In this document: positions 6,216 through 30,629 of the stretch, piece after piece
Layout of the letters: every line of letters begins with the position of its first letter
Numbering within the stretch: the stretch's first letter is position 1
NCBI RefSeq assembly: GCF_902833045.1
Contig: NZ_CADFDU010000008.1
Coordinates: 1 to 64,000, forward strand
Reading direction: 5' to 3'
Length of the DNA stretch: 64,000 nucleotides
Origin: Burkholderia sp. BCC0322
GTDB lineage: Bacteria > Pseudomonadota > Gammaproteobacteria > Burkholderiales > Burkholderiaceae
Program-made: the position numbers and the translations under genes
The notes under the pieces: generated by a model
The model's database searches: none
Seen by the model: only the letters and a program-made list of their open reading frames with translations
What the model was told of the DNA's origin: nothing

Positions 6216-6224
6216 GGTTCGATG

Positions 6225-12160: not shown

Positions 12161-12589
12161 TTCGAGCTCCTTATGGACAAGACGATTGGCATCTTGGTGA
12201 GCCGTGCGCGAAAGCACTCCGCTCGAAGCAAAGGTATGTCGAGCACACTGCGAAAGCGATTACACGCGATTACACGACTGAGGTAGCGATCCGGGCTCGT
12301 CGGAATGGAGGTCGAACCACCATGCGAGCGGCTGGCCGGGCGATGTCGACGCCTTGTATGAGCGGCACGCGACACCGTCGCGGCAACGCATGCCCTTGTC
12401 GCGAAAGGACTGCGAGCGGTTGACGTGCAACCTCACTGAACGTCCAGACCGGCTGCTGACCGCAATCCACCGCCCCTCCCCGCACTTGTTGCCCCGACGC
12501 ATGAGCGTTGCTCTACGGTGGGGGTTCGAGATTGCAACCGGCGCGCCTGGCGCGATGCGCCGGCCCGTATGGCGCGTGTCCCGGCCGGT
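12161..12589. other. Intergenic region upstream of the lectin gene
   Basis: About 430 bp between the lectin start and the LysR remnant. No gene is supported; the open frames are low-complexity shadows. The minus-strand end nearest 12161 carries the lectin ribosome-binding site. Confidence 0.5.
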
Positions 12590-16885: not shown

Positions 16886-18267
16886 AGTCGCTGCGCGTGC
16901 GCCTGCTCGCGACCGTGATGGCGGCGGTGGTCGTGTTCTGGGCGAGCTGGGGGGCGTTTCTCGGCATCGGCCTGTGGCGCGAACAGCGCGGCTGGCGCGA
17001 CGGCATGCTCGAAAGCGCCGCACAACTGCTGCTCCTGTCGTTGCCGGCTGCGATCGATCGCCTGCCTGAAGCGAACGCCCAGGCAGTGGTGCCGAAAGCC
17101 GCGTATGGCAGGTACGACATCGCGTTCCAGGTCTGGGTAGATGGCCGCATCGTGATGCACAGCGCGGATGCGCCGGCACCGGCGCTCAAGGCTGACCTGC
17201 GGGACGGCTACGGCACGAGCGCCGGTCGCGGCGCCGTGCACGACGAGACCTGGCGGGTCTACTCGCTGTCGGATCCGGCGGGCAGGATTCACGTTCAGAC
17301 GGGCGGCCCGGCCACGACCTGGCAGGAGAAGGCGAGCAATGCGTTGCAACTCGGGTTGTTCAATACAGCGGTGATGCTCGGGATGCTGGGCGTCGTGATC
17401 TGGTGGGTGATCCGCTGGTCGTTCGGGCCGGTGCGCGAGGTCCAGCGAGCCATCCAGCACAAGGCCGCGTTCGATTTTTCGCCGTTGCCGCTGGTGACGC
17501 TGCCGCGCGAACTCCGCCCGCTCGTCGAGTCGTTCAATCGCCTGCTCGCGCGGCTGAATCAGGCCGTCGACACCGAACGCCGCTTCATCGGCGATGCGGC
17601 GCACGAGTTGCGCACGCCGCTGGCGGCGTTGTCCGCCCAGGCGGAGGTCGCGTTGCAAGCGGACAGCCTGGCGGACAAGAACGAAGCATTGCGTCGGCTC
17701 GCAACGGGCGTCGAGCGCAGCGCGCGGCTCTCCGGGCAATTGCTCGAACTGGCGCGGCTGGATGCCGGATCGCGCGTCGACCAGCATGGGCCGGTCGACC
17801 TGTCGCGGCTCGTTGCGCTGATCGCGAGCGACTTCGACGCGGCCGCAGATGCGCGCCGACAGACGGTGCGGATCGCGGTCGAACCGGTACGCGTCTGGGG
17901 CGATCTGGACGAGATCGCGATTGCGGTGCGCAACCTGATCGACAACGCGTTGCGATACGGCCGTGACGGCGGGCGGGTCGAGATCACGTGCGACGTCCCC
18001 GCCGACGCGGACGGTGCGCGGGTCAAGCTGCGTATCGCTGACGACGGGCCCGGTGTGCCGGTCGGCGAACGCGAGCGGATCTTCGAACGCTTTTATCGCG
18101 TCCCGGGGACGGTGCAGCCGGGCAGCGGCATCGGCCTGTCGCTCGTCGTGCGAATCGCCGAGTCTCACGGCGGGTCGGTCGAGGTGACGACCGGGATCGG
18201 AGGGAACGGGCTGGCGGTGGTCCTGTCGCTCCCGGTATGGGTGGATCCGGCGCGCTGGCAGCGCTAG
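16882..18267 (+). CDS. Sensor histidine kinase, QseC/TctE type
   Basis: Predicted 461 residues. The first membrane helix is LLATVMAAVVVFWASWGAFL and the second LFNTAVMLGMLGVVIWWVI (about 159-177); they enclose a periplasmic sensor domain of about 125 residues. A HAMP-like linker follows, then the HisKA box FIGDAAHELRTPLAALSAQ with phospho-acceptor His241. The ATPase domain has an N box (NLIDNALRYG) and G boxes (ADDGPGVP, GSGIGLSLV). It pairs with the response regulator through the 4-nt overlap. The stimulus is unknown; QseBC and metal-sensing relatives share this layout. Confidence 0.94.
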   Translation: MKSLRVRLLATVMAAVVVFWASWGAFLGIGLWREQRGWRDGMLESAAQLLLLSLPAAIDRLPEANAQAVVPKAAYGRYDIAFQVWVDGRIVMHSADAPAPALKADLRDGYGTSAGRGAVHDETWRVYSLSDPAGRIHVQTGGPATTWQEKASNALQLGLFNTAVMLGMLGVVIWWVIRWSFGPVREVQRAIQHKAAFDFSPLPLVTLPRELRPLVESFNRLLARLNQAVDTERRFIGDAAHELRTPLAALSAQAEVALQADSLADKNEALRRLATGVERSARLSGQLLELARLDAGSRVDQHGPVDLSRLVALIASDFDAAADARRQTVRIAVEPVRVWGDLDEIAIAVRNLIDNALRYGRDGGRVEITCDVPADADGARVKLRIADDGPGVPVGERERIFERFYRVPGTVQPGSGIGLSLVVRIAESHGGSVEVTTGIGGNGLAVVLSLPVWVDPARWQR

Positions 18268-18365
18268 CGCGAGCGCCGGCAATCCGGCCGGTGCAGGCGC
18301 CGCGCCCTGCCCGGCCGATCCCGGTCTATGCTGTGCCATCGAAACCTTCAATCGAGGAGCAGCCG

Positions 18366-19082
18366 ATGTCCGACGCAACGACCGGAAACGCGCCAGACAG
18401 TGCGCACCCGCTCGACCATGTGGTGTGGAACGCGCTGGCGCGCAGGCAGCGCCGCTTTGCGCTTGGCAATGACCGTGCGTGGCGGTTTCCGGCAGCCATC
18501 GCGCCGTTCGCCGCGATCGAGGACACGAGCGCGGCATCGTTCGACGCATTGCGCACGCTGATCGCCGCACATGGGCCGGCGGCACTGGTCACGCCGGACG
18601 TGCTCGAGCTGCCGGCGGGATTGTCGGCGATCCGGCGCGCGAACCTGTTGCAGATGATCTGGCAACGGACGCTCGACCCTGCGCCTGAATCCGGCTACGT
18701 CACGCTCGCCGAAGCCGATGTGCCGGAAATGCTCGCGCTGACCACGGCCGCGCAGCCCGGCCCGTTCGGCCCGCGCACGTTCGAGCTCGGCCATTACATC
18801 GGCATTCGCAGCGAAGGCAGGCTGGCCGCGATGGCCGGCGAGCGGATGCAGGTCGACGGGTATACGGAGATCAGCGCCGTCTGCGTCGATGCCGCGTTCC
18901 GGCGGCAAGGGCTGGCGGCCCGTCTGATGCGGTCGTTGATTGCGGAGATCGATGCGCGCGCGGAAACGCCTTTCCTGCACGTCCTCACGTCGAACCAGGT
19001 TGCGATCGAGCGCTATCTCGCCCTCGGTTTTGTCGTTCGCCGCGAGATGCACCTGCTGGTGCTGGGCGACGAGCACGCATGA
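18366..19082 (+). CDS. GNAT-family N-acetyltransferase
   Basis: Predicted 238 residues, ATG with GAGGAG upstream. The C-terminal ~110 residues are an FR47/GNAT fold: motif A is AVCVDAAFRRQGLAARLMRSL, which carries the acetyl-CoA pyrophosphate-binding R/QxxGxA pattern. Then comes FLHVLTSNQVAIERYLALGF. The first ~120 residues are less conserved and precede the catalytic fold. Substrate unknown. The gene follows the two-component genes by about 100 bp and ends at a strong bidirectional hairpin. Confidence 0.85.
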   Translation: MSDATTGNAPDSAHPLDHVVWNALARRQRRFALGNDRAWRFPAAIAPFAAIEDTSAASFDALRTLIAAHGPAALVTPDVLELPAGLSAIRRANLLQMIWQRTLDPAPESGYVTLAEADVPEMLALTTAAQPGPFGPRTFELGHYIGIRSEGRLAAMAGERMQVDGYTEISAVCVDAAFRRQGLAARLMRSLIAEIDARAETPFLHVLTSNQVAIERYLALGFVVRREMHLLVLGDEHA

Positions 19083-19086
19083 CGAC

Positions 19087-19115
19087 GCGGCCGGCGCGAT
19101 GCACGTGCCGGCCGC
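19087..19115. terminator. Bidirectional terminator hairpin between GNAT and ohrR genes
   Basis: A perfect 9-bp stem GCGGCCGGC/GCCGGCCGC with an 11-nt loop lies in the 48-bp gap between two convergent genes. On the plus strand it is followed by GGTTTGT. Its placement fits a shared terminator. Confidence 0.6.
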
Positions 19116-19130
19116 GGTTTGTCCGGACGT

Positions 19131-19586
19131 TTATTCGTCGGTCGAGCGGATCAGGTTGCCGCGCAGCGTGACGATCGCCTTCTGCATCTTTGCGAATTCG
19201 TCCGGCTTCAACCCGGTGGCTTCGACCAGATTCATGTCGAGCCCCTTCTCGCGCACGCGGCGGCCGCGCTTCGTGAGGCTGACGAGCACCTGGCGCTCGT
19301 CCGACGGATCGCGGTGCCGCTCCAGATAGCCCATCGCCTCGAGCTTCTTCAGGATCGGCGTCAGCGTATTGGATTCGAGGAACAGCTTCTCGCCGAGCTG
19401 GCCGACCGTCTGGTTGTCCTGCTCCCAGAGCGCAATGATCGTGATGTATTGCGTATACGTGAGGCCGAGTTCTTCGAGGATCGGCTTGTAGGCCTTGCCG
19501 AACGCGAGGTTCGCCGAGTAGATCGCAAAGCACAGGAACTCGGACAGCTTCGGCGCGGCGGCGGATGGGGCTTCGGTCGGTTTCAT
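19131..19586 (-). CDS. ohrR: MarR-family regulator, OhrR type
   Basis: Predicted 151 residues from the ATG at 19586, with GGAGGA upstream. The winged helix is visible as QTVGQLGEKLFLESNTLTPILKKLE and GYLERHRDPSDERQVLVSLT. The reactive Cys typical of OhrR lies in SEFLCFAIYSAN near residue 23, after which the LTYTQYITIIALWE segment matches OhrR proteins. OhrR represses ohr until organic peroxide oxidises this Cys. Two palindromes in its own leader resemble those before ohr at 13153, so it probably represses both genes. Confidence 0.88.
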   Translation of the reverse strand: MKPTEAPSAAAPKLSEFLCFAIYSANLAFGKAYKPILEELGLTYTQYITIIALWEQDNQTVGQLGEKLFLESNTLTPILKKLEAMGYLERHRDPSDERQVLVSLTKRGRRVREKGLDMNLVEATGLKPDEFAKMQKAIVTLRGNLIRSTDE

Positions 19587-19630
19587 GAACGTCCTCCAGC
19601 GACGCGAGCGGCCGCAGACAGACGCATTAT

Positions 19631-19674
19631 ATATCGTGTGCGATCTTATCGGTAGCATGATAATCGTGTTCGAT
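19631..19674. promoter_or_regulatory. Two candidate OhrR operators upstream of ohrR
   Basis: ATATCGTGTGCGAT (19631-19644) and TAATCGTGTTCGAT (19661-19674) are related to each other and to the sites before ohr. They lie 45-88 bp upstream of the ohrR start, where an autoregulatory site is expected. Confidence 0.6.
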
Positions 19675-19688
19675 GAACCGGCGCGCCG

Positions 19689-19817
19689 TCAGCCTGCCCT
19701 ACGGCGCTTGCCAGTCTGCATGCGGCTGACCGACATCAGCGTGCATTGCACCGGATGCGCGATTTCGGTCGCGAGCCCGCCTGCGGCAAACAGCAGGATC
19801 GTCAGCCAGCGTTTCAT
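19689..19817 (-). CDS. Small protein with N-terminal hydrophobic segment, coupled to the GFA gene
   Basis: Predicted 42 residues. The ATG at 19817 overlaps the stop of the upstream GFA gene by 4 nt (ATGA), the arrangement used for translational coupling. The product starts MKRWLTILLFAAGGLATEIA, a signal-peptide or membrane-anchor-like segment, followed by a short basic tail. I recognise no family. It may be a real small membrane protein or a chance frame. Confidence 0.4.
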   Translation of the reverse strand: MKRWLTILLFAAGGLATEIAHPVQCTLMSVSRMQTGKRRRAG

Positions 19818-20185
19818 GCGTCCTCCACGACCGAGAGGCTCGCGCCGTTGGCGACCATTGCGTCGAGTGCATACGGATCGACACCTTCGAGGCAGCCGAG
19901 GTTGACGCGCCAGCAGGCGGGATCCATGCGCGTCTGATGGAACGGATAGATGCCGCAATGGCTGCAGAAATAGTGATGGGCCGTGCGTGTGTTGAATTGG
20001 TAGCACGTCAGCGCGCCCTCGCCTTCGACGATCGTCAGTTCGCTTGCGGCGAACATCGGGCTCATCAGCGCGCCGCGCCGGCGGCACAGGCTGCAGTTGC
20101 AGCGAACCGCCGGCGTCACGGCCGTTCTGACTTCGAATTTGACGGTCCCGCAATGGCAGGACCCTTTGAACCAGGTTGCAGACAT
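19814..20185 (-). CDS. GFA/CENP-V-family zinc protein
   Basis: Predicted 123 residues. The zinc-binding pattern of the glutathione-dependent formaldehyde-activating (GFA) family is complete: GSCHCGTVKFEV at the N-terminus, CNCSLCRRRG near residue 30, and YFCSHCGIYPFHQTR near residue 73. Family members are small single-domain proteins; only some act on S-hydroxymethylglutathione, so the substrate is open. A 42-residue frame follows with an ATGA overlap. Confidence 0.9.
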   Translation of the reverse strand: MSATWFKGSCHCGTVKFEVRTAVTPAVRCNCSLCRRRGALMSPMFAASELTIVEGEGALTCYQFNTRTAHHYFCSHCGIYPFHQTRMDPACWRVNLGCLEGVDPYALDAMVANGASLSVVEDA

Positions 20186-20498
20186 GGTGGATTCCCGAAG
20201 AGGTCATGCCTGCTTTATAGCGGACGCCCGAAGCTGCGTTGTATCGCAATGTATCCGCCGTTCGTGCAGATACAGAACATTGCAAATCGGCGGCGATAGC
20301 GGCCCACAAGAGAGCGAGCAGTCTTGTCGCACAGGGGCGCGATGCTTTGCCAGGGGGATACTGCACTTGCCGTTTTGGCCCTACAATGCGCAGGCGACGA
20401 AACCGCATGATCGGCCGTCAGGATGCCGCGTTCATCGAACGCAGCGTCCGACATTCAAGCGGTTTCGCTGAATAACGAACAACATCCAACCCGCATCC
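20186..20498. other. Divergent intergenic region, no gene seen
   Basis: About 310 bp between the GFA gene (minus) and a lipoprotein gene (plus). It should hold both promoters. No hairpin, operator or small gene stands out. Confidence 0.5.
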
Positions 20499-21137
20499 AT
20501 GAAAAGAAGAACGTTTCTCGCGCTGCCCGCCGTGGCGGCGTCCGGCCTGCTCGCCGGTTGCTCCAACGCCGACTTGGGACCCATCACCAATCGCATGATG
20601 AAGGACCCGGAATACCGGGAAACGCTGTCGGCATTTCTGATCAGCGCGGACGGAAAGAGCCTCGTCGTCATCGGCAAGCAGTATCACTACATTTTCGATG
20701 TGCCGCCGGCCCTCGCCGTCAATCTCACGGCACCCTATCGCCCCAAGCTGTACACCGATTTCGACGATTTCGAGACGCACGGCGACAAGATCACCGGACG
20801 TTATGTATTGCAGCTTTCGCGCGACGACGCACCGTCCGGCTCCGAGTTGCGTGAACGCGCGCTCGCCGATGGTTTCAAGGATCAGGGTTACACGCTGACC
20901 GAGAGCGGCACGATCAGCGGCAAGCGCTACCAGCCGAACGACGTCACGCCTTCGTCGATCCCGCAGGCGTTCAATCACGCGTACGACGTCAAGGTGATCG
21001 AGCGGCCGTCGGTGCTGGGCAAGGGAGCGAAGCTCGCGCTTTCGCCGATCACGATGGCAGCCGATGGCGCGCTCGGGCTGCTGGGTATCGCGCTGGCCCC
21101 GATCGCACTCACCACGATTATCGTCCTGGCCCACTAA
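20499..21137 (+). CDS. Predicted lipoprotein of unknown function
   Basis: Predicted 212 residues. The N-terminus MKRRTFLALPAVAASGLLAGCSNADLG is a lipoprotein signal with lipobox LLAGC; the paired arginines also resemble a Tat motif. The mature part has a compact polar domain (PPALAVNLTAPYRPKLYTDFD, GRYVLQLSRDDAPSG). It ends in a hydrophobic stretch (ADGALGLLGIALAPIALTTIIVLA) that could be a second membrane anchor. No known domain is recognised. The next gene also encodes an exported protein and lies about 60 bp downstream. Confidence 0.8.
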   Translation: MKRRTFLALPAVAASGLLAGCSNADLGPITNRMMKDPEYRETLSAFLISADGKSLVVIGKQYHYIFDVPPALAVNLTAPYRPKLYTDFDDFETHGDKITGRYVLQLSRDDAPSGSELRERALADGFKDQGYTLTESGTISGKRYQPNDVTPSSIPQAFNHAYDVKVIERPSVLGKGAKLALSPITMAADGALGLLGIALAPIALTTIIVLAH

Positions 21138-21199
21138 GGCCATGGCATCGCGGCATTGCCGCAATGCGACGACCACGTCGCGCTTCAGCGGAATCCACC

Positions 21200-21883
21200 A
21201 TGAGAATTCCTGCCCGAACGATGTTCCGTATCGGTTGCCTTGCCACCTGCCTGGTCGTCACGCAACACGCCGTCGCCGAAAGCGGCTGGGACGCCGCGCG
21301 GCATGTCCGCGCCGACTGGGTGTTCGCGTCGATGAAGGAAAGCGACGTGCGGCCCACGCTGGATCGCGCACTGAAGGACCAGGCGCGCTGGGCCGGCCTG
21401 CCCGGCAACGCACCCGATACAGGCGCGTTCCAATGCACGAAGCTCGCCTTGCCGCCGCCGTCGGCCGACGCTCAGGCCGCGTTCGACGCGGCACCGTCGC
21501 CGCACGGTCGCGACGCCGACAAGGCGTACGCGAAGGCCGCGTCGCTCGGTTCGTGGCGTGCGGCCGCGCGGCTGGCGAGCAGTTCGCTCGACGACGAGGA
21601 TTGGGAAGGTGCGCAGCCGGCGATTGCATGGTTGCTCGTTCATCACGTTCCGGCCGGCTACAACAAGCTCGCGGATGTCCTGCAGGCGATGTCGGGCTAC
21701 GACGGCGAAATGCCCGGCGAGGGCATGAGCGGGATGATCGCGTCGCTGCGCTGGCGCGCGGCGCGCGAAGGCGATCCGGTCGCGCAGATGGAGATGGCCG
21801 ATCTGTTCGAGAAGCTCGGCAAGGCCGATCTCGTCACCGCGCTGCGCGCTTGCGCGACGCAGCAGAATCCGGCGCTGAAATGA
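21200..21883 (+). CDS. Exported protein, Sel1/TPR-like
   Basis: Predicted 227 residues from the ATG at 21200. The N-terminus (MFRIGCLATCLVVTQHAVAES) is a signal peptide. The mature part contains helical repeats resembling Sel1-like TPRs: DADKAYAKAASLGSWRAAARL, AGYNKLADVLQAMSGYDG and RAAREGDPVAQMEMADLFEKLG. Repeats of this type mediate protein contacts. It probably forms a unit with the preceding lipoprotein gene. Function unknown. Confidence 0.75.
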   Translation: MRIPARTMFRIGCLATCLVVTQHAVAESGWDAARHVRADWVFASMKESDVRPTLDRALKDQARWAGLPGNAPDTGAFQCTKLALPPPSADAQAAFDAAPSPHGRDADKAYAKAASLGSWRAAARLASSSLDDEDWEGAQPAIAWLLVHHVPAGYNKLADVLQAMSGYDGEMPGEGMSGMIASLRWRAAREGDPVAQMEMADLFEKLGKADLVTALRACATQQNPALK

Positions 21884-21943
21884 AGCGAGCCGGTATGCCG
21901 AGGTGATGTGCGGCGTACCGGCTCATGTTGTGACGTTGTCGCG

Positions 21944-23077
21944 TCAGACTTCGTACCGCACCGCGTGCGCTTCGGTCGGCAGCGGCAGATCCCAGCGCAG
22001 CAGCATCGCTTCGAGCGCGCGGTTCGTCAGCGACGTGTCGCGCCGCGCGTTGCGACGCAACAGCGCCGCGCGCGGCTGTTCGAGGTAGACGAGCGTGATG
22101 TCGGCGCCGTACGCAAACAGCAGGTCGAGCGTCTTCTTGCGCATCAGCGGCGACAGGTTCGTCGCATTCCACACGAACGGTTTCTGCACGCGCAACAGCG
22201 CCTTCGCGGCATCGACCGCATGGTGCGCGACGGCACCCTCGTTCTGCCCGTGACGCAGCCCCAATGCATCGCGCGCATCGTCGAATGACACGACCGGCAG
22301 ATCCGGATGATGCCGCGCAACCCACGTGTTCTTGCCCGACGCAGGCAGACCCGACATCACGACGACCTGCGAGCCCGGCGGACGGAACAGCGGATAGTCG
22401 GGATGCACGTCCGCGCCACGGAAGTAGCTGAGCGCGGTGTGCGCATCGGCGAACGCGCGCGGCTGGCCGTAACAGCCGTCTTCCCTCGCCAGTTCACGCA
22501 ACAGTTCGATGTTGTCGAGCACGCGCTGCGTATCGGCGCAGATGCGCCCGCGAATATCGGCTTCGGCGAGCAGGCACAGCAGCGGCAGGCTGACCTGCCA
22601 CGACAGCTCGCGCGCGATGAATTCGGGCGTGCCGCGGCGCGATCCGCTCATCGCGAAGAACGGCACCTGGTGCACGGCGATCATCCGGCAGATCGCCTCG
22701 CGCACCGTGAACGGCACGCCGGCATCCCACAGGGCGATCCGCGCATCGATCGCGCCCTTGCGCGAGTGGCCGGGATGGCCGATTGCACCGGTGACGGGAT
22801 CGATGACCGTCGTGCCGTGCTTCGCGATGTCGTGCAGCAGCGCGGCCAGGAACACGATCTCCTGGTCCGTGCGCGACGCGGCCTGGTACTCGGGCAGCGC
22901 GAGCAGCGCATCGATCACCATCATCGTATGCGTCCACACGTCGCCTTCGCCGTGGTGCGCGGGCTCCTGCGGTGTCGTTTTCGCCTGTTCGAGCGCGGGA
23001 AATGCCGCGAGACACGCACGATAGTCCGGCTGCCGGCCGGATACAGGCACGAGTGCCTGAAGTTGTTCGTACTTCAT
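21944..23077 (-). CDS. HD-Pnk: HD phosphoesterase fused to 5'-OH polynucleotide kinase
   Basis: Predicted 377 residues from the ATG at 23077 with AAGGAG upstream. The N-terminal half (about 1-200) is an HD-domain phosphohydrolase: His in GDVWTHTMMVIDALL, His82-Asp83 in LLHDIAKHGTT and a further His in GHPGHSRKG. The C-terminal half is a P-loop kinase with Walker A GLPASGKNTW (243-252), then VVSFDDARDALG and VWNATNLSPLMRKK, as in polynucleotide kinases. Runella HD-Pnk with this architecture removes 2',3'-cyclic phosphate and phosphorylates 5'-OH ends, making broken RNA ready for sealing. The RNA ligase gene lies 40 bp upstream on the same strand, so the pair forms a healing-and-sealing unit. 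Confidence 0.88.
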   Translation of the reverse strand: MKYEQLQALVPVSGRQPDYRACLAAFPALEQAKTTPQEPAHHGEGDVWTHTMMVIDALLALPEYQAASRTDQEIVFLAALLHDIAKHGTTVIDPVTGAIGHPGHSRKGAIDARIALWDAGVPFTVREAICRMIAVHQVPFFAMSGSRRGTPEFIARELSWQVSLPLLCLLAEADIRGRICADTQRVLDNIELLRELAREDGCYGQPRAFADAHTALSYFRGADVHPDYPLFRPPGSQVVVMSGLPASGKNTWVARHHPDLPVVSFDDARDALGLRHGQNEGAVAHHAVDAAKALLRVQKPFVWNATNLSPLMRKKTLDLLFAYGADITLVYLEQPRAALLRRNARRDTSLTNRALEAMLLRWDLPLPTEAHAVRYEV

Positions 23078-23117
23078 GCTCAAGACTCCTTCGAAACGGC
23101 GCACGGCCGCTCCGCAT

Positions 23118-23987
23118 TCATTTGCCCGGATGCGCGGCGAGGCGCGATGGCCACGTGACCGTCGGGCGCGGTGCATACAGGTCGACGCCCGGCGCGAGCA
23201 GGTTCGGGATGAACGGCTGCTCCGAATGATGGCGTGCCGACTCGAGAATGGCCTGCACGAAATCGTGGCGCACCCACTTCAGGCGCGCGGTCGTCGTGCC
23301 GTCCGTTTCGACCTTCACATAAAGCCCTTCGGAGCGCTCCGACTTGTCGCACTGCTGCCATGCACGTGCGAGGTCGAGCCCTTGCCGCCGCACCGTTTCC
23401 TCGAACGCGCGACGCCAGTCCGGCGTCTTCGCGAGCGACGGGCCGAGCAGCGCCTTCAGGTCGGCGAGCCGCGCCGGCGCGATGCCCTCGTACAGCACGG
23501 GCACCGACAGCACGGGCCCGTCGGCGAGCAGCGCGCGACGCGCGGGCGTCGACAGGAAACGGCCCGTTGCGCGGTCGAACACGTCGAACTCGAAAAAGTG
23601 ATGCGGCAGCGCGTCGTAGAACACCGCGTGCTTCTTGCTCATCGTCTCGCCGTACATCACGTAGCGATCGCCAAGGCGGTCGAGCAGCCAGCCGGCATGG
23701 GCGGCGGCCCAGGTCTTCACGAACCCGAACTGCCGCTCGCGGCCGCCGCCGGCCAGATAGTGGCCGCGCGACTGCAGCAGCAGTTCGCCCGCCGGGCTGA
23801 AGCTGATGCCCGTGTTTGCGCCGTCGAGCTTTTCCTCGACGACGAGATGCGCGCCCGCGAGGGTGCGATAAGGAATGTGGTCGTGACCTTCGTCGTCGTC
23901 CTGCAGGCGCGAGCCTTCGAGGTGCGGCGTGCGTGGGTAGCGGGCGAGGTCGAACGATTGCGCGTATGCGCGGAAATCCAGCGTCAT
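23118..23987 (-). CDS. ATP-dependent RNA ligase of the covalent nucleotidyltransferase family
   Basis: Predicted 289 residues, ATG with GGAGAAAG upstream. Motif I is EEKLDGANTG with nucleophile Lys53. Further motifs are LQSRGHYL (Ia), YVMYGETM (III-like), FFEFDVFD (IIIa), SEGLYVKV (IV) and ARLKWVR (V), in the right order for Rnl2-like ligases. The C-terminal ~50 residues are short, so there is no large OB or extra domain. The enzyme should join 3'-OH and 5'-phosphate RNA ends made by the HD-Pnk encoded next. It is first in the two-gene operon and is divergent from rtcB-prfH across 733 bp. DNA ligase activity is less likely given the family resemblance. Confidence 0.88.
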   Translation of the reverse strand: MTLDFRAYAQSFDLARYPRTPHLEGSRLQDDDEGHDHIPYRTLAGAHLVVEEKLDGANTGISFSPAGELLLQSRGHYLAGGGRERQFGFVKTWAAAHAGWLLDRLGDRYVMYGETMSKKHAVFYDALPHHFFEFDVFDRATGRFLSTPARRALLADGPVLSVPVLYEGIAPARLADLKALLGPSLAKTPDWRRAFEETVRRQGLDLARAWQQCDKSERSEGLYVKVETDGTTTARLKWVRHDFVQAILESARHHSEQPFIPNLLAPGVDLYAPRPTVTWPSRLAAHPGK

Positions 23988-24474
23988 GGTCTTTCTCCGG
24001 AAACAACGGAAGAAGCCGACGACGTGAACGAACGATGGGATGTGCGTTGCGGTGTCAGTGCGTGTCCGGGCGCGGCCCTGCGATTACTGTTCCGCGCCGC
24101 GAGGCAGACGGAAACGGGCAGGACGACATGCGGCCGGGACGGCAGTCGTCGGCGTATCAGGCGAAGGGACGAATGTTTGCGGGCACTTGGATCACCGATT
24201 CGATGAAGGTTCAGGGATGAAGCAGGCGGATGCTACGAAACGGCTTTTGCGCTGTCAAGCGTGGTCGGGCACCTCCGTGGCGGCTGTCTGCGTAGGTCGA
24301 ATGCCTGCCGTGGCGCGCGTTGCGCGTCATCGACGGTGAAATGATCTGGATTCCTATGTGTGTGTTTTTCGCCACATCGAAGGATGATTCGGTGGGCTAC
24401 GCTGCACCGCCCGCTTGCTGCGCCCGTCGCGTGCATGCTAGAGTCGCCGCCATTCCGATCAACCCCTCACTCGC
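23988..24474. other. Divergent intergenic region of the RNA-repair island
   Basis: About 490 bp that must contain the promoters of both RNA-repair operons. No gene is recognised. TGGC-N5-TTGC near 24308 resembles a sigma-54 promoter, but the spacing is 2 bp too short. A TGCATGCTAGAGT element near 24432-24444 could be an extended -10 for rtcB-prfH. Confidence 0.4.
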
Positions 24475-24674
24475 AAGGAGAAGAAAATCATGACGTCACG
24501 CCAGCACTCCTCCCGTCGCGGGTCGTAGTTCGGGTTTTTCGCGTCCGTTCGTTTCATCGTTCACGCCAAGCAGCACCGCATATCGCCGTCACGGCGATGA
24601 GCCGGGTCGTTCCGATCCGGTCGTGCCGCCCTCTTCCCGACTTCCGATGCCGGGCAGCGCCTGCGTGCGCTGCC
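24475..24674 (+). promoter_or_regulatory. Structured leader of the rtcB-prfH operon
   Basis: A Shine-Dalgarno AAGGAG (24475-24480) precedes a 12-codon frame. Three strong stem-loops follow. 24582-24598 is a 7-bp perfect stem, ATCGCCG/CGGCGAT. 24602-24620 is an 8-bp stem with one G-U pair, CCGGGTCG/CGATCCGG. 24653-24674 is an 8-bp perfect stem, GGCAGCGC/GCGCTGCC. A TTTTT run lies at about 24698-24702, and rtcB starts at 24721. A short translated frame followed by competing hairpins is the layout of translation-coupled attenuators, but no mutually exclusive pairing is proven here. Confidence 0.45.
24490..24528 (+). CDS. Possible 12-residue leader peptide upstream of rtcB
   Basis: The frame MTSRQHSSRRGS ends at TAG (24526-24528). 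It has a consensus AAGGAG with 9-nt spacing, better than that of rtcB itself. The peptide is rich in Ser and Arg. The last codons overlap a small CCCG/CGGG hairpin. Because prfH encodes a release-factor homologue, a short frame whose termination affects downstream structure would be a logical sensor. This is inference; the frame could also be chance. Confidence 0.35.
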   Translation: MTSRQHSSRRGS

Positions 24675-24720
24675 TGCGCCATGGCCCGCCGTTCTACTTT
24701 TTCATCGAACGGAAACCTCC

Positions 24721-25869
24721 ATGGGCACTTCCATGCAATACCTGGGCGAGCGCATCACGTTGTGCGCTTGCGCCACCACCTGGATCGAAGGTGAGGCCAT
24801 CCGGCAGCTTGAACACGCTGCCACCCTCCCCGGCATGCGGCGCGTCGCCGGCATGCCCGATCTTCACCCCGGACGCGGCTACCCGGTCGGCGCCGCGTTC
24901 TTTTCGACGGGCCGGCTCTATCCGGCGCTGATCGGCGGCGATATCGGCTGCGGGATGGCGCTGTGGCAGACCGCGCTCGATGCGCGGCGCGTCAGTGCGT
25001 CGAAGCTCGCGAGCCGGCTCGGCTCGATCGACGCCACACCCGATGCGAGCTGGCAGCCGCTCATTGCGGCCGCCGGGTTCGCGGATCATGCGTACGCGGC
25101 GTCGCTCGGCACGATCGGCAGCGGCAATCATTTCGCGGAGGCGCAGCGAATCGACGCGGTGTACGACACCGATGCCGTCGAGGCGCTCGGTCTCGATCCC
25201 GATCGCCTGCTGCTGCTCGTGCATAGCGGGTCGCGCGGCTTCGGCCAGTCGATTCTCGAGCAACACATGCGCGAGCACGGCTACAACGGCCTCGACGACG
25301 CGGATGCCGCATGCACCGCGTACCTCGCGCGTCACGATGCGGCGTTGCGCTACGCGATCGCGAATCGCGACCTGATCGCGCGGCGCATGCTGGCGCGCTG
25401 GCGCACCGATGGCCGGTGCGTGCTCGACGTGAACCACAACCTGGTGAGCCGTGCGACCGTCGACGGCGAGCCGGGCTGGCTGCATCGCAAGGGTGCGACG
25501 CCGGCCGACGCAGGGCCGGTCGTCATTCCCGGGTCGCGCGGCGACTACAGCTACCTCGTCGTGCCGGTGCGGCCCGACGATGCAGCCAGCCTTGCGTCGC
25601 TGGCGCACGGTGCGGGCCGCAAGTGGGCGCGCGGCGATTGCAAGGGGCGCCTCGAACGGCGCTTCACGCCGTCGCAGCTCACGCGCACGCAGCTCGGCAG
25701 CCACGTGATTTGCGAAGACCGCGAACTGCTGTACGAGGAAGCACCGCAGGCCTACAAGCCGATCGACAGCGTCGTCGACGCGCTCGAGGCGGCCGGCCTG
25801 CTGCGCAAGCTGGCGCGGCTCGCGCCGGTGCTGACCTACAAGACGTCCGGGGAGGCTGGCCGATGCTGA
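24721..25869 (+). CDS. rtcB: RtcB-family RNA ligase (RtcB2 type)
   Basis: Predicted 382 residues. Metal and GTP site residues of RtcB are present: Asp47 and His49 in MPDLHPG, Cys77 in GGDIGCGMALW, Asn136-His137 in GSGNHFAE, His168 in LLVHSGSRG, His239 in DVNHN and the guanylylated His296 in LAHGAGRKWARGDCKG. RtcB joins 2',3'-cyclic phosphate or 3'-phosphate ends to 5'-OH ends with GTP and Mn2+. This short form next to prfH belongs to the RtcB2 group rather than the archease-linked RtcB1. Its stop codon lies within the first codons of prfH (7-nt overlap), so the two are co-translated. No RtcA or RtcR is nearby. Confidence 0.93.
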   Translation: MGTSMQYLGERITLCACATTWIEGEAIRQLEHAATLPGMRRVAGMPDLHPGRGYPVGAAFFSTGRLYPALIGGDIGCGMALWQTALDARRVSASKLASRLGSIDATPDASWQPLIAAAGFADHAYAASLGTIGSGNHFAEAQRIDAVYDTDAVEALGLDPDRLLLLVHSGSRGFGQSILEQHMREHGYNGLDDADAACTAYLARHDAALRYAIANRDLIARRMLARWRTDGRCVLDVNHNLVSRATVDGEPGWLHRKGATPADAGPVVIPGSRGDYSYLVVPVRPDDAASLASLAHGAGRKWARGDCKGRLERRFTPSQLTRTQLGSHVICEDRELLYEEAPQAYKPIDSVVDALEAAGLLRKLARLAPVLTYKTSGEAGRC

Positions 25870-26477
25870 TGCAGATTTCTTCGGCGCACGGCCCGCTCGA
25901 GTGCCAGCTTGCCGCGGCCAATGCGTTGCGGCGCCTGCAGGCGGAGGCCGATGCGCTGCGCGTCGTCGTTACGGTGCTCGATGCGCAGCCGGGCGAACGG
26001 CCCGGCACGCTGCGCTCGGCGCTGCTCGATCTCGACGGCGCCGGCGCGCAGGCGCTTGCGGATCGCTGGACAGGCACGCTGCAATGGATTTGCGCGAGCC
26101 CGTACCGGTTGCGCCATCCGCGCAAGAACTGGTTCATCGGCGTCACGCGCTGTGCCGACGCGCAGCCGCTGCCGGATGGCGACGTGCGGTTCGAAGCGAT
26201 GCGCGCACGCGGGCCGGGCGGCCAGCACGTGAACAAGACGAGCTCCGCGATTCGTGCGACCCATGTCGCGACCGGCCTGTCGGTGCGCGTGGAAAGCGAG
26301 CGCAGCCAGCACGCGAACAAGCGCCTGGCGCTGCAGTTGCTGCAGGTGCGGCTGCAACAGGAAGCCGACCGTCACGCGTCCGATGCGCGCCGGCAGCGGC
26401 GGATGCAGCACTTTGCGCTGGAGCGCGGCAACCCCGTGCGCGTGTTTCACGGGGCGGCGTTCGTGCCGGCCGACTGA
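25863..26477 (+). CDS. prfH: Peptide chain release factor homologue PrfH
   Basis: Predicted 204 residues, start ATG at 25863 inside the end of rtcB. The catalytic release-factor domain is clear: RARGPGGQHVNKTSSAIR with GGQ at 119-121, then THVATGLSVRVESERSQHANK. The N-terminal ~100 residues are unlike RF1/RF2 and there is no PxT or SPF codon-recognition motif. PrfH acts on ribosomes with damaged decoding centres. The rtcB2-prfH pair of an E. coli strain has been reported to protect against colicin E3, which cuts 16S rRNA. Here it most likely releases stalled peptides so that RtcB2 can reseal the rRNA. Confidence 0.92.
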   Translation: MLMQISSAHGPLECQLAAANALRRLQAEADALRVVVTVLDAQPGERPGTLRSALLDLDGAGAQALADRWTGTLQWICASPYRLRHPRKNWFIGVTRCADAQPLPDGDVRFEAMRARGPGGQHVNKTSSAIRATHVATGLSVRVESERSQHANKRLALQLLQVRLQQEADRHASDARRQRRMQHFALERGNPVRVFHGAAFVPAD

Positions 26478-26489
26478 GCCCGAGCGCCT

Positions 26490-26518
26490 GGCCGCCGGTG
26501 GTTGTTGCGCCGGCGGCC
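26490..26518. terminator. Hairpin between prfH and the convergent hydrolase gene
   Basis: A perfect 9-bp stem GGCCGCCGG/CCGGCGGCC with an 11-nt loop begins 12 bp after the prfH stop. There is no U run, so it may act with Rho or serve both convergent genes. Confidence 0.45.
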
Positions 26519-26563
26519 GGACGCCGATCATCCGTCCGTCCGCGTGAGCGCGGTACGGCGCGC

Positions 26564-27391
26564 CTAGCGCGGCGCGATCGACAACAATGCGGCGAGCATC
26601 GCACCGTCCGGCTTCGCGAGATCGTCGAGCACGTCGAAGTGCTGCATGCCGGGGAGCCCTACGTGGACGATCCGCTCGCCGGCTGCTTCGCATGCCGTCG
26701 CGTAGTCGCGTGCTTGCCGCACGAGTTCGGGCAATTCGGCCTCGCCGACCGCGACGACCGTCGGCGCGCCGGGGCCGACATGGCGCAACGGGCTGTACGC
26801 CTCGACCTCGTGCGCGGTGAGTTGCAGCTTGTCGTTCAGGCAGCACAGCGAGATCGGTTCGAGATCGACGAGCGGGCTGATCGCGAGCGCCGAGACGACG
26901 CCCGGATGCGCGCGGTGCACGGCCGTCAGGTGGCCGCCGGCTGAATGGCCGCTCAGGTGGATCGGCCGCTTCGCGGTGCCGAGGCCGTCGGGGTCGTTCG
27001 CGAGGTAGTCGAGCAACGCACCGATCTCGCCGACGATGCCGGTCATCGTCGCGACCGGCGCGAGCGTGTATTCGGCGAGTATCACGTCGAAACCGCACGC
27101 GAGCGGCCCGCTTGCCGCGTAGGCGAAATCCTCTTTCGCGCAGTGCTGCCAGTAGCCGCCGTGAATGAACACGAACAGCGGCGCATCGGGCCGACCGCAC
27201 GACAGCCAGTCGAAACGCTGCGCGGGTTGCGCGCCGTAACGCAGGTCGCGCCGCACGGACGCGGCGTCGTAGAGCGCCGCGCTGCGCGCCTGCATCGACG
27301 CGAGCAACGCGGGGAAATCGGGAACGGCCCGCGTGTTCAGATAAGCGGCGTCGAGCGCCGTGCGGTCCATGCCGCGATAGAGGATCGTCAT
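26564..27391 (-). CDS. Alpha/beta hydrolase, kynurenine formamidase-like
   Basis: Predicted 275 residues. It has the oxyanion-hole motif HGGYW (77-81), the nucleophile Ser150 in LSGHSAGGHL, and an acid/His end in PGMQHFDVLDDLA. The HGGYW plus GHSAGG combination is typical of the arylformamidase/KFA-like branch of esterase-lipase proteins. No kynureninase or tryptophan dioxygenase gene is near, so tryptophan breakdown is not supported by context. It is convergent with prfH. Confidence 0.85.
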   Translation of the reverse strand: MTILYRGMDRTALDAAYLNTRAVPDFPALLASMQARSAALYDAASVRRDLRYGAQPAQRFDWLSCGRPDAPLFVFIHGGYWQHCAKEDFAYAASGPLACGFDVILAEYTLAPVATMTGIVGEIGALLDYLANDPDGLGTAKRPIHLSGHSAGGHLTAVHRAHPGVVSALAISPLVDLEPISLCCLNDKLQLTAHEVEAYSPLRHVGPGAPTVVAVGEAELPELVRQARDYATACEAAGERIVHVGLPGMQHFDVLDDLAKPDGAMLAALLSIAPR

Positions 27392-27619
27392 CGGGAATTA
27401 CCTGGGTCGGGTTGCGGAAGCGCGGACGCTAGGTCCGGTGCGAAGGCGGCTTCTCAGTCGCCGATGCACGCATTATCCGCAGCGCGGCACGGGGCGGCTA
27501 TCCGGAATCGGCGAGCGCGGAAACCGTCTGTCCGTTTTCGGCGGGAGATCGGCGCGGCATGCTGCCGCACCGTGATCAGGTTCGCATGCGCGAGTGTGAA
27601 GGCCCGATACAGCCGGCGG

Positions 27620-27865
27620 TGCGCCGGGCGCTCGGATCAATTCCGAGCTCTCGGTCAGGTTCCGGTCGGGATCGCGCACGTAGAGCGACCGGATCGTCCG
27701 CGTCGCACCCGTGCGTTCGACCGGCCCTGCGACGACCGGTCATTCGACGCGTTTCAGGTGCGCGATCACGTCGTCGAGCGGCACCGACGCGATGAAGCGA
27801 TGCAGGCGCTCGCCGATCAGCTCGCGGACAACGTCGCCGCATGTGTTGTGATGCGCGTGACTCAT
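27620..27865 (-). pseudogene. Decayed VOC-family (glyoxalase-like) gene, C-terminal part
   Basis: One minus-strand frame reads RFIASVPLDDVIAHLKRVE, then TGA (27740-27742), then PVVAGPVERTGATRTIRS and LYVRDPDRNLTE. This is the usual C-terminal half of VOC proteins (DDVIAHL, GPVERTGATGPIRS, RDPDGNLIE), interrupted by one in-frame stop. The N-terminal half is missing or scrambled upstream. The 41-residue frame before the stop could still be translated from 27865, but no ribosome-binding site is seen. Confidence 0.7.
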
Positions 27866-27903
27866 GGCGCGACGGTAGGAGATTTGAACCGCGCAAACAG
27901 AAC

Positions 27904-27932
27904 GGCCCCGCTCGATGGCTCGAAGCGGGGCC
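27904..27932 (-). terminator. Probable intrinsic terminator
   Basis: A perfect 9-bp stem GGCCCCGCT/AGCGGGGCC with an 11-nt loop. On the minus strand it is followed by GTTCTGTTTG. It lies about 215 bp past the end of the small membrane protein gene at 28147 and before the VOC remnant. The stretches on each side of it show no gene. Confidence 0.5.
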
Positions 27933-28146
27933 GGCTGAATTCGGGGGCTGCTTACGCCAGCGACTCGGCACGTAACGGGTTCGTGCATCCGGCCTATCTT
28001 GCGGCCGGTTTCTGAATTCCTGATGGGTGCTACTTTAGGGAATCCGGATCGCCAACGCTGTAGGGCCAGTCTGAAACTGAATGGGACGACTGCTGAAAGC
28101 GTCCGTTTCGACAGCAGCGCACCGCTATCCGCTATCGGCGCGAATC

Positions 28147-28359
28147 TCAGTACGCCGACATCTCGACGCAAGGATCGACCTTGGACGGCGAGCAGATGAC
28201 CGAATACTTGGCACTCTCGCGCATCAGCGCTTCGCCTTCGTGCAGCGCGATCTTGATCTCGGGGTGACGCTCGTACGCGAGGAATGCCGAGCACACCACC
28301 GCGGACATCACGACGAGGGAAAACACAAATTTTTCAAGGGTTTGGAAACGTTCAGGCAT
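28147..28359 (-). CDS. Small single-helix membrane protein
   Basis: Predicted 70 residues, ATG at 28359 after GAAAGG. Residues about 10-29 (KFVFSLVVMSAVVCSAFLAY) form a membrane helix. A polar tail follows with two further cysteines (VICSPSKVDPCVEM). I recognise no family. The codon use in the second half is like that of neighbouring real genes, and start and leader look functional. Confidence 0.6.
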   Translation of the reverse strand: MPERFQTLEKFVFSLVVMSAVVCSAFLAYERHPEIKIALHEGEALMRESAKYSVICSPSKVDPCVEMSAY

Positions 28360-28534
28360 GGTTCGACCTTTCTTCTAGGCCACGATTATAGCCCAGGATA
28401 AGGGTTTTCCCTATATCTCCGGTCGTATGCCGGGGATCGCCGTGATCGCCCCCCTTTTCGTTGTCGTTTCGCCCATCGGTTCGCGCCTGGGGCACCGGGC
28501 GGGGCGCGTGAGCGTCGCCGCGTCGTTCAAGCGG

Positions 28535-29107
28535 AATCGCCGGGAGCGGCCGCTTCGACGGACCGGCCCGCTCGAGGTCGATCGGCATGATCTTCGCGTC
28601 GATGCAGCTCTCGATGTGCGCCACGTCCGCGTGTTCTCCCGGAAAGCGCTGCTCGATGAGCCGGGCCCAGTCGCGGATCACTTCCCGGTCGTACCGGGGA
28701 AGCGGCACGGCCTGCGAGATCGGCGGGCCGTCCCCTTCGTCGCCGACCCGGCGCGGCAGGTCGGCGGTGCCGACGAACGATACCGATGCGAGCCGGGCCT
28801 TCAGGCCTTCGCGACGTGCCGCGCGGATGAACGCGGCAATCGGCGTATAGGAGCCGGCCATGACGACGACGTCCGGCTGGCTGTCCAGCAGCAACGCGAG
28901 GCCCGTGTCGACCGCCGTGGTCCCGCGGCGGAACGTGCGTGCCGTGACGACGTCGAGGCCATGGCGCTGCAGCGCCAGCCGCGTGCCCGCCAGCACCGCG
29001 AGCCCGAAGCCGTCGTCCGGATAGCACACCGCGAAACGTTTCGCGCCGTCGTGCTCGATGAAATGGCCGACCCGCGCGCGGGGCTCGTCTTCATGGCTGC
29101 GGCGAAA
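28535..29107 (-). pseudogene. Fragment of an ABC-transporter substrate-binding protein (branched-chain amino acid type)
   Basis: The frame reads VGHFIEHDGAKRFAVCYPDD, ALQRHGLDVVTARTFRRGTT, PDVVVMAGSYTPIAAFIRAA, LASVSFVGTADLPRR and HADVAHIESCIDAKIMPIDL. This is the middle and later part of a Leu/Ile/Val-binding-type periplasmic protein (Peripla_BP_6). The signal peptide and N-lobe are missing, and similarity ends before the expected C-terminus, where unrelated sequence follows. No permease or ATPase partner is adjacent, in line with decay. Confidence 0.75.
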
Positions 29108-29119
29108 GACGCGGCTGCG

Positions 29120-29557
29120 TCACTGCGGCGCCGACGCGCCGCTCGCCGCATTGCCGGGCCACGCCTTGCCGATCTCGTCGACCAGTGACTTCGCGGTGCC
29201 CGTCACGATCGCCGCGTCGACGCCGGAGGTCTGCCACGAGCCGTCGGCGGCCTTCACGAAGGTCAGGTTCGCGCGCGAGGGCTTGTAGTCGGCGTTGCGC
29301 CACGTGACCACGACATCGCACGAGTACGTGCGCTCGCCGAGCTTCTTGCAGTCGCCGTCGGGCTTCGCCGACACGACATCGGCCGAGACCGGCAGCGGCT
29401 GGCCGAACAGCGCATTCAGGCCGCCGTGGTTTTCCGCTTCGAGCGCGCGGCGCACGGCGGCGTCGACGTCGCTCGACCCGGGGCCGTCGTGGAGCAGGTT
29501 GCAGGCGGCCAGCAGCGTCGATGCTCCGGCGAGTGTCAGCAGCGTGTAGAACTTCAT
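29120..29557 (-). CDS. Predicted lipoprotein
   Basis: Predicted 145 residues. The signal (MKFYTLLTLAGASTLLAAC) ends in lipobox LLAAC. The mature domain has one cysteine pair (GDCKKLGERTYSCDVVVTW), which may form a disulfide, and a beta-rich region (ANLTFVKAADGSWQTSG). It resembles small periplasmic lipoproteins of unknown function in Burkholderia. It stands alone between the ABC importer operon and the substrate-binding-protein fragment. Confidence 0.8.
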   Translation of the reverse strand: MKFYTLLTLAGASTLLAACNLLHDGPGSSDVDAAVRRALEAENHGGLNALFGQPLPVSADVVSAKPDGDCKKLGERTYSCDVVVTWRNADYKPSRANLTFVKAADGSWQTSGVDAAIVTGTAKSLVDEIGKAWPGNAASGASAPQ

Positions 29558-29696
29558 GGATAGCCGTTATAGGGTGAACGCCGCGTAGTCTGCAACGTCC
29601 GCGTGTCGTGCGCGGTATCCATTTGTAACCAATTGCACGGATGCGCAAGCGGCGCCGCGTGCCCGTGTGTCGCCGTGGGGCTGAACGGGCCCTCGC

Positions 29697-30629
29697 CTAT
29701 TGCCGCTCCTGCTTCACGCGGCTCACGAGCTGCGTCGGGCTCACGAACTGCAGTGCGATCACGACCCAGACGAGCGTGATGGCCATGTAGATCATCGCCA
29801 TCGCGTCGATCGACTGCGGCGCACGCACGCCGGTCGAGAACACCGCGTAATACAGCGCGACGACGAGCGTCTGCGTGCTCGGCCCTGCGGTGAAGAAGGT
29901 CAGCTCGAACATGCCGATCGTGCGCACCAGCACGAGCAGCCCCGCCGCGAGCATGCCGGGCACCAGCAGCGGCAGCAGCACGTGGCGGAAATAGCGCCAC
30001 GTGTTCGCACCGAAGATGCGCGCGGCGGCTTCCAGATTCGGATCGATCTGCTCGATGAACGGCGTCATCACGAGGATCACGAACGGCAGCGCCGGCACGA
30101 GGTTCGCGAGGATCACGCCGGGCAGCGTGCCCGCGAGCCCGACCTTGTACATCACGGTGGCCATCGGGATCCCGTACGTGACGGGCGGCACCATCAGCGG
30201 CAGCAGGAACACCAGCAGCGCAAGGCGCTTGCCGCGAAACTGCACGCGCGCGAGCGCGTACGCGGCCGGCACGCCGAGCGCGATCGACAGCAGCACGACC
30301 GCGCCGACGACCTCGACGGTCACCCACAGCACGCTCGCGAGCTGGAAGTCCTCCCAGGCCTTCGCGTACCAGTGCAGCGTGAAGCCCTGCGGCAGCGGCG
30401 TGCCGAACCAGCGCGTCGCGACCGAATTCACCGCGACGGTCGCGATCAGCAGCATCACGTTCAGCAGGAAGAACGCCATCAGCCCCCACACGAGCGCCTT
30501 CCATGCGCGGCCGGCGAGATGGCTTGCCATCTTCTGCGGTTTCCTCGCGTCGACGGGGCGCTCGCCGCGCGCATCGGGCGCGTCGTGCTTCGGCGGCCAC
30601 GTGCGGGCGGCATGTTGGTCGGTCGCCAT
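29697..30629 (-). CDS. ABC transporter permease 2 (spermidine/2-AEP importer type)
   Basis: Predicted 310 residues with six membrane helices predicted by eye and an N-terminal cytoplasmic extension of about 30 residues. The EAA loop that contacts the ATPase is EAAARIFGANTWRYFRHVLLPLL. It is the last gene of the operon: its start touches the stop of the preceding permease gene by 1 nt (TGATG). It forms the membrane channel with the other permease. Relatives import polyamines, iron or 2-aminoethylphosphonate. Confidence 0.9.
   Translation of the reverse strand: MATDQHAARTWPPKHDAPDARGERPVDARKPQKMASHLAGRAWKALVWGLMAFFLLNVMLLIATVAVNSVATRWFGTPLPQGFTLHWYAKAWEDFQLASVLWVTVEVVGAVVLLSIALGVPAAYALARVQFRGKRLALLVFLLPLMVPPVTYGIPMATVMYKVGLAGTLPGVILANLVPALPFVILVMTPFIEQIDPNLEAAARIFGANTWRYFRHVLLPLLVPGMLAAGLLVLVRTIGMFELTFFTAGPSTQTLVVALYYAVFSTGVRAPQSIDAMAMIYMAITLVWVVIALQFVSPTQLVSRVKQERQ

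Follow-up and report, generated by a model that had tools for sequence, protein, structure and literature searches.

The locus described here raises the question of why two chemically different RNA-repair operons should stand back to back in one bacterial genome. It lies at positions 21944-26477 of a 64,000-nucleotide (nt) stretch of Burkholderia sp. BCC0322 (contig NZ_CADFDU010000008.1, positions 1 to 64,000 of the forward strand; hereafter the window) and comprises genes for an ATP-dependent RNA ligase and for HD-Pnk, a fused HD phosphoesterase and polynucleotide kinase, and, divergently, genes for the RNA ligase RtcB2 and the release factor PrfH. We put at about two in three the probability that the locus holds two distinct RNA-repair systems and that arrested translation induces both of them, through leader open reading frames (ORFs) in the gap between the operons. 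Regulation is a better link between the two operons than the locus itself: the pairs are probably connected by a shared trigger and not by a shared island, and a shared trigger would account for their co-occurrence in genomes where they are not neighbors. The two leader ORFs were absent from an earlier account of this DNA (the original prediction), which missed regulation and proposed a joint defense system. The features of the locus are as follows.

21944..23077, minus strand: HD-Pnk, an HD phosphoesterase domain plus a P-loop polynucleotide kinase, 377 amino acids (aa); Pfam HD (PF01966) and AAA_33 (PF13671)
23118..23987, minus strand: RNA ligase, ATP-dependent, 289 aa, first gene of the minus-strand operon; Pfam RNA_ligase (PF09414), 114 bits, E 1e-32
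24015..24023, minus strand: arm 2, GTCGTCGGC, able to pair with arm 1 or with the Shine-Dalgarno/start-codon region of the ligase
24145..24153, minus strand: arm 1, GCCGACGAC, 3 nt past the stop codon of the ligase leader
24157..24186, minus strand: ligase leader ORF, VPANIRPFA, GTG start, 9 codons, coordinates including the stop
24230..24258, minus strand: sigma-70-like promoter of the ligase/HD-Pnk operon, TTGACA-17-TAGCAT
24490..24528, plus strand: RtcB2 leader ORF, MTSRQHSSRRGS, 12 codons plus stop, with the Shine-Dalgarno sequence AAGGAG in front
24721..25869, plus strand: RtcB2, GTP-dependent RNA ligase family, 382 aa; TIGR03073, 541 bits against a cut-off of 272
25863..26477, plus strand: PrfH, peptide chain release factor H, 204 aa, GGQ present; TIGR03072, 280 bits against a cut-off of 167

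All four genes are open full-length frames in two divergent operons separated by a 733-base-pair (bp) gap. The original prediction had placed the limits of the locus correctly, and its gene identities, including the KLDGAN of the ligase, are borne out by the Pfam and NCBIfam scores. The start of HD-Pnk was taken at MKYEQLQ, in a frame that extends to 23176. One chain holds an N-terminal HD domain and a C-terminal P-loop kinase (Pfam); D83, G243, L244, P245, G248, and K249 were invariant across 13 aligned relatives, and H82 was nearly so, with Q in locus L042 (L and G numbers denote loci and genomes of our comparison). By this architecture, HD-Pnk is a predicted end-healing enzyme with 2',3'-phosphoesterase and 5'-kinase activities. 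The ligase carries KLDGAN (nucleotidyltransferase motif I, KxDGxN), and K53, D55, G56, N58, E133-D135, EGLYxK (K225, E227), and K237 were invariant among 13 aligned relatives. RtcB2 also matches PRK09588/NF007153 (558 bits, cut-off 407), and its Asp/Cys/His metal positions and guanylylated His align with those of Pyrococcus horikoshii RtcB (1uc2). The start of prfH overlaps the end of rtcB2. By sequence, the closest solved structures are RtcB-type proteins for RtcB2 and release factor H (7sa4 chain 8, E 2e-67) for PrfH, and the same search returned no solved relative of HD-Pnk or the ligase at E 0.001. HD-Pnk and the ligase heal and seal RNA ends, whereas RtcB2 ligates them directly, a contrast that the original prediction had drawn and that family knowledge supports.

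An alignment of Burkholderia sequences showed two conserved blocks in the gap, one per operon. For RtcB2, a leader was defined as an ORF of 12-19 codons with a Shine-Dalgarno sequence, approximately 110-270 nt upstream of rtcB2, and the window has one at -231. Such an ORF was present in 19 of 26 representatives, among them E. coli, although a few of the 26 share a genus; shuffles predict 0.3, and 2 of 224 control upstream regions had one. Counted by distinct upstreams, 45 of 54 had it. The leaders read MTNPLSMTLCRPFQD in E. coli, MTTTNMNTLCGQSQK in Proteus, MTTTTLILCRTSRD in Pectobacterium, MQNTSTSFAGLVR on a Klebsiella plasmid, MQKQTSRLAGRA in Achromobacter, and MTRPVLVVPARETL in Rhizobium, and mostly MQALITLCRSRLA in the genus of G359, where 12 of 25 genomes have RtcB2 and which, as inferred from L203, is probably Pseudomonas in the narrow sense. 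In an alignment of 18 selected gammaproteobacterial and betaproteobacterial sequences, the last part of the leader ORF, which reads GCAGGYC (in E. coli GCAGAC, in Proteus GCGGAC), forms a helix with GRCCTGC, GTCTGC, or GTCCGC ahead of rtcB2. Of the cells of this helix, 88.9% were paired, and four of its seven pairs had both-sided changes; shuffles scored as high in 0 of 500 cases on four measures and in 9 of 500 on a fifth, and slid versions were 22-52% paired. An intrinsic terminator was considered as a general feature of these leaders and found unsupported by eye, with no T-runs directly after the first helix; T-runs lie approximately 10-20 nt further on in several leaders (E. coli, Proteus, Pseudomonas), and the window has a T5 run 6 nt past the leader stop.

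One such leader has already been studied. In P. aeruginosa, PA5471 (armZ) falls in cluster PRK09588, the family matched by RtcB2 of the window, and forms one message with the downstream release-factor gene PA5470, prfH (PMC3516279), so that armZ-prfH is an rtcB2-prfH operon under translation-dependent leader control. The controlling leader, PA5471.1, has 13 aa and lies approximately 250 bp upstream of PA5471 (PMC3516279), with Q and F at codons 3 and 4 (PMC13041342). The leader of L203, MIQFSTLCRLRLA, at -254 and with Q3 and F4, fits this description, and we assign the RtcB2 leaders to the family of PA5471.1. ArmZ is raised by deletion of the leader region or by an amber codon at position 3 of PA5471.1, control having been modeled as transcription attenuation with a terminator (PMC13041342), and ribosome-targeting drugs induce armZ (PMC13041342, PMC3516279); leader-dependent induction is thus published for this species. 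Tobramycin induces prfH in P. aeruginosa biofilms (PMC13159725), and the E. coli homolog ykfJ is reported to be inducible by 4-azaleucine (PMC3516279). According to a review, leader control of an anti-repressor appears to be unique to MexXY (PMC12057347). In the text of the E. coli colicin E3 study (PMC9223846), the words "leader" and "upstream" do not occur, and "leader" was not found in the 2006 description of the prfH operon. The RtcB2 leader is therefore already known in one species, and what our comparison adds is its membership in a family with members as far apart as E. coli and Burkholderia. Folding did not settle which way the RtcB2 switch works, and for this we lean on the published P. 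aeruginosa mutants.

The ligase/HD-Pnk operon has a leader of another kind. Its promoter, TTGACA-17-TAGCAT, is the only promoter-like site within 21900-26600 (shuffles expect 0.4), and both hexamers are invariant in a nine-sequence Burkholderia alignment; a sigma-54 promoter was rejected, the one -24/-12 pattern tried having no exact match in the window. The leader ORF mostly has 8-9 codons, usually opens with GTG-CCN, and ends 1-4 nt ahead of arm 1, and arm 2 lies 32-47 nt ahead of the ligase start used in the search. The peptides include VPRIVAIPH (L007), VPRTSNIIA (L008), VPRFHIITR (Massilia), VPRFFAITC (several Janthinobacterium), VPCTSAPH (Pectobacterium), VPHANQHA (Pseudomonas), and VPVSFY (L063); VSAIRQFA (Achromobacter) and MKFRTSITC (Mitsuaria) depart from GTG-CCN. 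An ORF of 6-12 codons ending just before arm 1 was found in 41 of 45 distinct ligase upstreams. A stricter test, which combined the ORF with an 8-bp helix, was passed by 12 of 18 representatives (all except L045, L058, L060, L010, L011, and L067), where 0.1 would be expected; of the controls, 3 of 236 passed. No Rfam family matched at gathering score in window positions 18000-32000 or in eight related loci, and known RNA families were rejected as the identity of the leaders within that range.

In 20 sequences, picked for having both arms identifiable, all 20 kept the seven core pairs between arms 1 and 2, and two of these pairs showed compensatory changes (U-A for C-G in four Janthinobacterium, A-U for G-C in L063). 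RNAalifold without a preset structure returned only these seven pairs, and slid versions had 6-63% of cells paired. On the better two measures, 17 and 18 of 500 shuffles scored as high, a modest result, since four of the nine pairs are invariant. When the segment between arm 2 and the first ligase codons was folded by itself, and thus in the absence of arm 1, arm 2 made at least four pairs with the Shine-Dalgarno/start region in 13 of 16 sequences; its partner letters vary by genus (AUGAC, CAAUGA, GACGGA, GGCGAA). Since arm 2 pairs with arm 1 or with the start region, the two states are mutually exclusive on paper. Placing the ribosome at the leader start instead of the leader stop raised the modeled accessibility of the ligase start region in 16 of 19 sequences (mean +0.11, one of the 16 rises being only 0.01), and naked RNA was mostly intermediate or resembled the leader-stop state. 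These models predict that the operon would be on when the leader is not completed.

Taken together, these observations suggest the following mechanism, in which both operons would be switched on by the damage that they mend, by way of leaders that are unrelated yet follow one logic. A ribosome that reaches the end of the leader would mask arm 1, whereupon arm 2 would pair with the first gene's start region instead and keep the operon off; for armZ of P. aeruginosa, the proposed off-switch is a transcription terminator. Ribosomes held at the first leader codons, by cut rRNA, cut tRNA, or ribosome-targeting drugs, would leave arm 1 free to pair with arm 2, and the operon would be on. RtcB2-PrfH repair of colicin E3-cut 16S rRNA and protection against colicin E3 by rtcB2-prfH, the latter also cited in the original prediction, are published for E. 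coli (PMC9223846). As for substrates in this Burkholderia, we infer that RtcB2-PrfH would free and then re-seal ribosomes with cut 16S rRNA, and that HD-Pnk and the ligase would heal and re-seal RNAs with 2',3'-cyclic-phosphate and 5'-OH ends, perhaps tRNAs. Ribosomes stuck at the start codon would be a natural signature of colicin E3 damage because cut ribosomes can retain fMet-tRNA, which PrfH releases (PMC9223846, citing earlier work); both leaders would read ribosomes in this position.

The two pairs co-occur beyond chance. In a sample of 200 genomes from the order, HD-Pnk (strong matches, E below 1e-100; three weak HD-only matches left out) was found in six genomes and RtcB2 (E≤1e-60) in six, with both in five (hypergeometric 1.4e-8 by genome); the ligase adjoins HD-Pnk in the same six genomes (five further weak ligase matches left out). 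By genus, RtcB2 occurred in 4/4 HD-Pnk genera against 5/109 overall (9e-7) and, without Burkholderia, in 3/3 against 4/108 (2e-5). In a phylum sample of 398 genomes, HD-Pnk was found in six, RtcB2 in 11, and both in four; by genus this was 3/4 against 9/212 (2e-4) and, without Burkholderia, 2/3 against 8/211 (0.004). Among 65 Burkholderia genomes, 16 had HD-Pnk, 20 had RtcB2, and 15 had both, always within approximately 10 kb of each other. In other genera with both pairs, the two are separated by more than 1 Mb or fall on separate contigs, adjacency being possible in G134 and G211, whose contigs are short. The co-occurrence expected by the original prediction therefore stands (five genomes shared of six and six in the order sample), but its "one locus" does not hold as a rule.

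A separate scan kept 80 loci, of which 38 (L031-L068, HD-Pnk identity at least 58%) were used and 42 weak HD-only loci (L069-L110) were set aside. RtcB2 proper (identity at least 58%) was present in 14 of these 38 genomes, namely, in Burkholderia (9/10), Achromobacter (2/2), Pectobacterium (2/2), and Massilia (1/1), with 0/15 in Janthinobacterium and 0/8 in eight others. The genome of the window resembles those of the Burkholderia cepacia complex: HD-Pnk was 89-96% identical in 10 named Burkholderia loci, and the whole four-gene set was present in seven of the 10 fetched named loci (89-98% protein identity). B. cenocepacia NCTC13227 (L036, the same genome as L150) has the ligase and HD-Pnk alone, RtcB2 not being found genome-wide; L147, L148, and L151, also Burkholderia, have RtcB2-PrfH alone with HD-Pnk not found, in L151 at the same GFA/MarR site.

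Several findings weigh against our main interpretation. No leader was found in nine of the 54 RtcB2 upstreams (L030, at a contig edge, L161, L162, L207, L208, L210, L215, L216, and L217), and the leader criteria were fixed after the pattern had been seen, the controls being judged by the same criteria. The Burkholderia, Achromobacter, and alphaproteobacterial RtcB2 leaders were excluded from the helix count for their different spacing or structure, as were L159 and L203, together with near-duplicates; the Burkholderia leader keeps the ORF without the GCAGGYC motif, and other pairings are predicted there. A second RtcB2 helix, which would cover the ribosome-binding site, shows less regularity (54% of cells paired), and modeled accessibility of the RtcB2 start with an early stall was higher in 16 of 23 sequences, lower in three, and equal in four, with differences mostly below 0.1. 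On the ligase side, the leader and arm 1 are absent from four of 45 upstreams (L041, L010, L011, and L067), the Roseateles-type leaders (L045, L058, and L060) fail the strict 8-bp test, and the Burkholderia GTG lacks a good Shine-Dalgarno sequence. The outer two pairs of the ligase helix fail in 3/20 and 11/20 sequences, and three further measures were unexceptional against shuffles (cells paired, 172/500; pairs changed, 275/500; pair types, 500/500). Arm 2 makes only three pairs with the start region in L044 and L068 and none in L007, and the modeled accessibility is reversed in two of 19 sequences (L007 and L008). Finally, the co-occurrence statistics have no frequency-matched control family and come from overlapping samples of relatives that are not independent, two-pair adjacency was seen in Burkholderia only, and seven of 11 HD-Pnk genera in the separate scan lack RtcB2.

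The last two points also favor an alternative that is unlikely, though less so than the others, namely, that the adjacency is a coincidence at a variable chromosomal site, where two accessory, functionally unlinked repair operons met once in a Burkholderia ancestor and were inherited vertically. The loci in which either pair is missing alone, including L151 with RtcB2-PrfH at the same GFA/MarR site, fit it as well. It does not account for non-adjacent co-occurrence elsewhere, which persists in both the order and the phylum sample when Burkholderia is left out, or for the presence of RtcB2 in 15/16 HD-Pnk genomes against 20/65 overall within Burkholderia.

A second alternative, distinctly unlikely in our view, keeps the leaders but not the sensing of arrested ribosomes: the leaders would act by translational coupling or re-initiation, or would bind the repair enzymes for autoregulation. 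The leader peptides vary widely, length and RNA arms being the conserved properties, and modeling of the RtcB2 leader showed little change, as this would lead one to expect. What speaks for sensing instead is the homologous P. aeruginosa leader, for which deletion, the early amber codon, and ribosome-targeting drugs all activate armZ (PMC13041342, PMC3516279); these mutant and drug results fit sensing and not coupling. A dedicated anti-phage or anti-toxin defense island with both pairs acting jointly, as proposed in the original prediction, is quite improbable and as a defense system unproven, for although E. coli RtcB2-PrfH protects against colicin E3 (PMC9223846) and RtcB2 is matched in 29 plasmid records, at least five of them chromosome-sized, none of the four proteins matched a PADLOC family, the scanned neighbors are of GNAT, MarR, GFA, hydrolase, and ABC-transport families, the pairs are usually unlinked, and the induction of the P. 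aeruginosa version by ribosome-targeting drugs indicates a trigger that is not phage-specific.

Around the four genes, three flanking ORFs were unmatched. Window positions 28352-32604 hold an ABC transporter cluster with two permeases, an ATPase, and a partial periplasmic binding protein; this ATPase gave the only PADLOC match among 10 neighbors, to mad3 and mad8, which is probably a generic ATPase match. Four examples of protein clusters shared between loci of different genera were scanned and proved to be a histidine kinase, two response regulators, and a short-chain dehydrogenase.

Some related loci are interrupted by insertions. In B. aenigmatica L039 (2850-11011) and in L040, RtcB2 and the ligase are present, HD-Pnk is broken by an insert near codon 41, and the fetched stretch stops short of the prfH position. 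A second, complete HD-Pnk (68-72% identity) stands directly behind the ligase in both, as if the element carried its own full-length copy to replace the gene broken by its insertion; insert proteins of L039 match the gamma-mobile-trio families GmtY, GmtZ, and GmtX below curated cut-offs. In L146 (G249, approximately 6090-12440), HD-Pnk harbors a tyrosine recombinase and a Tn3-family transposase, the latter scoring above its cut-off, and the ligase, RtcB2, and PrfH frames are still present. In five of 15 Janthinobacterium loci (L044, L047, L048, L055, and L062), a canonical-type RtcB, approximately 36% identical to RtcB2, is divergent and just upstream of the ligase, where RtcB2-PrfH would be; that of L044 scores 161 bits on TIGR03073, under the cut-off of 272. 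This is a second juxtaposition of the same two chemistries. In E. coli L193 (1085-3477), rtcB2-prfH stands directly behind dinB-yafN-yafO-yafP, 189 nt past yafP, with the leader ORF inside that gap, and on a Klebsiella IncC conjugative plasmid (L205) rtcB2-prfH with its leader adjoins sul1.

If both operons respond to arrested translation, the adjacent operons of the window become a case of shared regulatory logic. Sensing of cut ribosomes or tRNAs while translation fails is known for rtcBA, through the protein RtcR; in the literature searched, it is not described for HD-Pnk and the ligase, and one RtcB2-PrfH operon is described only as a drug response. No description of the ligase/HD-Pnk leader surfaced either, in a search that was incomplete and so does not establish its absence from print. 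A leader that reads ribosomes stuck at the first codons would be a direct, testable answer to how such damage is sensed, and the Pseudomonas leader, studied so far for drug efflux, gains an RNA-repair context. On balance, we lean toward a broader view in which RNA repair is wired to translation arrest: two enzymatically unrelated operons would each have evolved, independently of the other, a leader ORF that holds repair off when a healthy ribosome completes it, the switch of the ligase/HD-Pnk operon would be a new RNA family, and the armZ leader would be a branch of an older RNA-damage response that extends from E. coli to Burkholderia.

Several known systems invite comparison. HD-Pnk of Runella slithyformis has the same HD plus P-loop kinase architecture. 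The rtcB2-prfH operon of E. coli ATCC 25922 has the same two families in the same order as the window; in the one 4.6-kb E. coli locus examined, a leader ORF is likewise present and no ligase or HD-Pnk gene stands alongside. ArmZ of P. aeruginosa has been studied as an anti-repressor of MexZ, unlike the RNA-repair reading given here. The Pnkp1-Rnl-Hen1 system likewise combines healing by a kinase/phosphatase with sealing by an ATP-dependent ligase (PMC4411300) but uses other proteins, and no Hen1-type gene is among the four of the window. In rtcBA with RtcR, an RtcB-type ligase is likewise induced upon RNA damage; there, the sensor is a protein, RtcR, that binds tRNA fragments (PMC7790460), whereas the leaders of the window are proposed to be RNA sensors that read translation itself.

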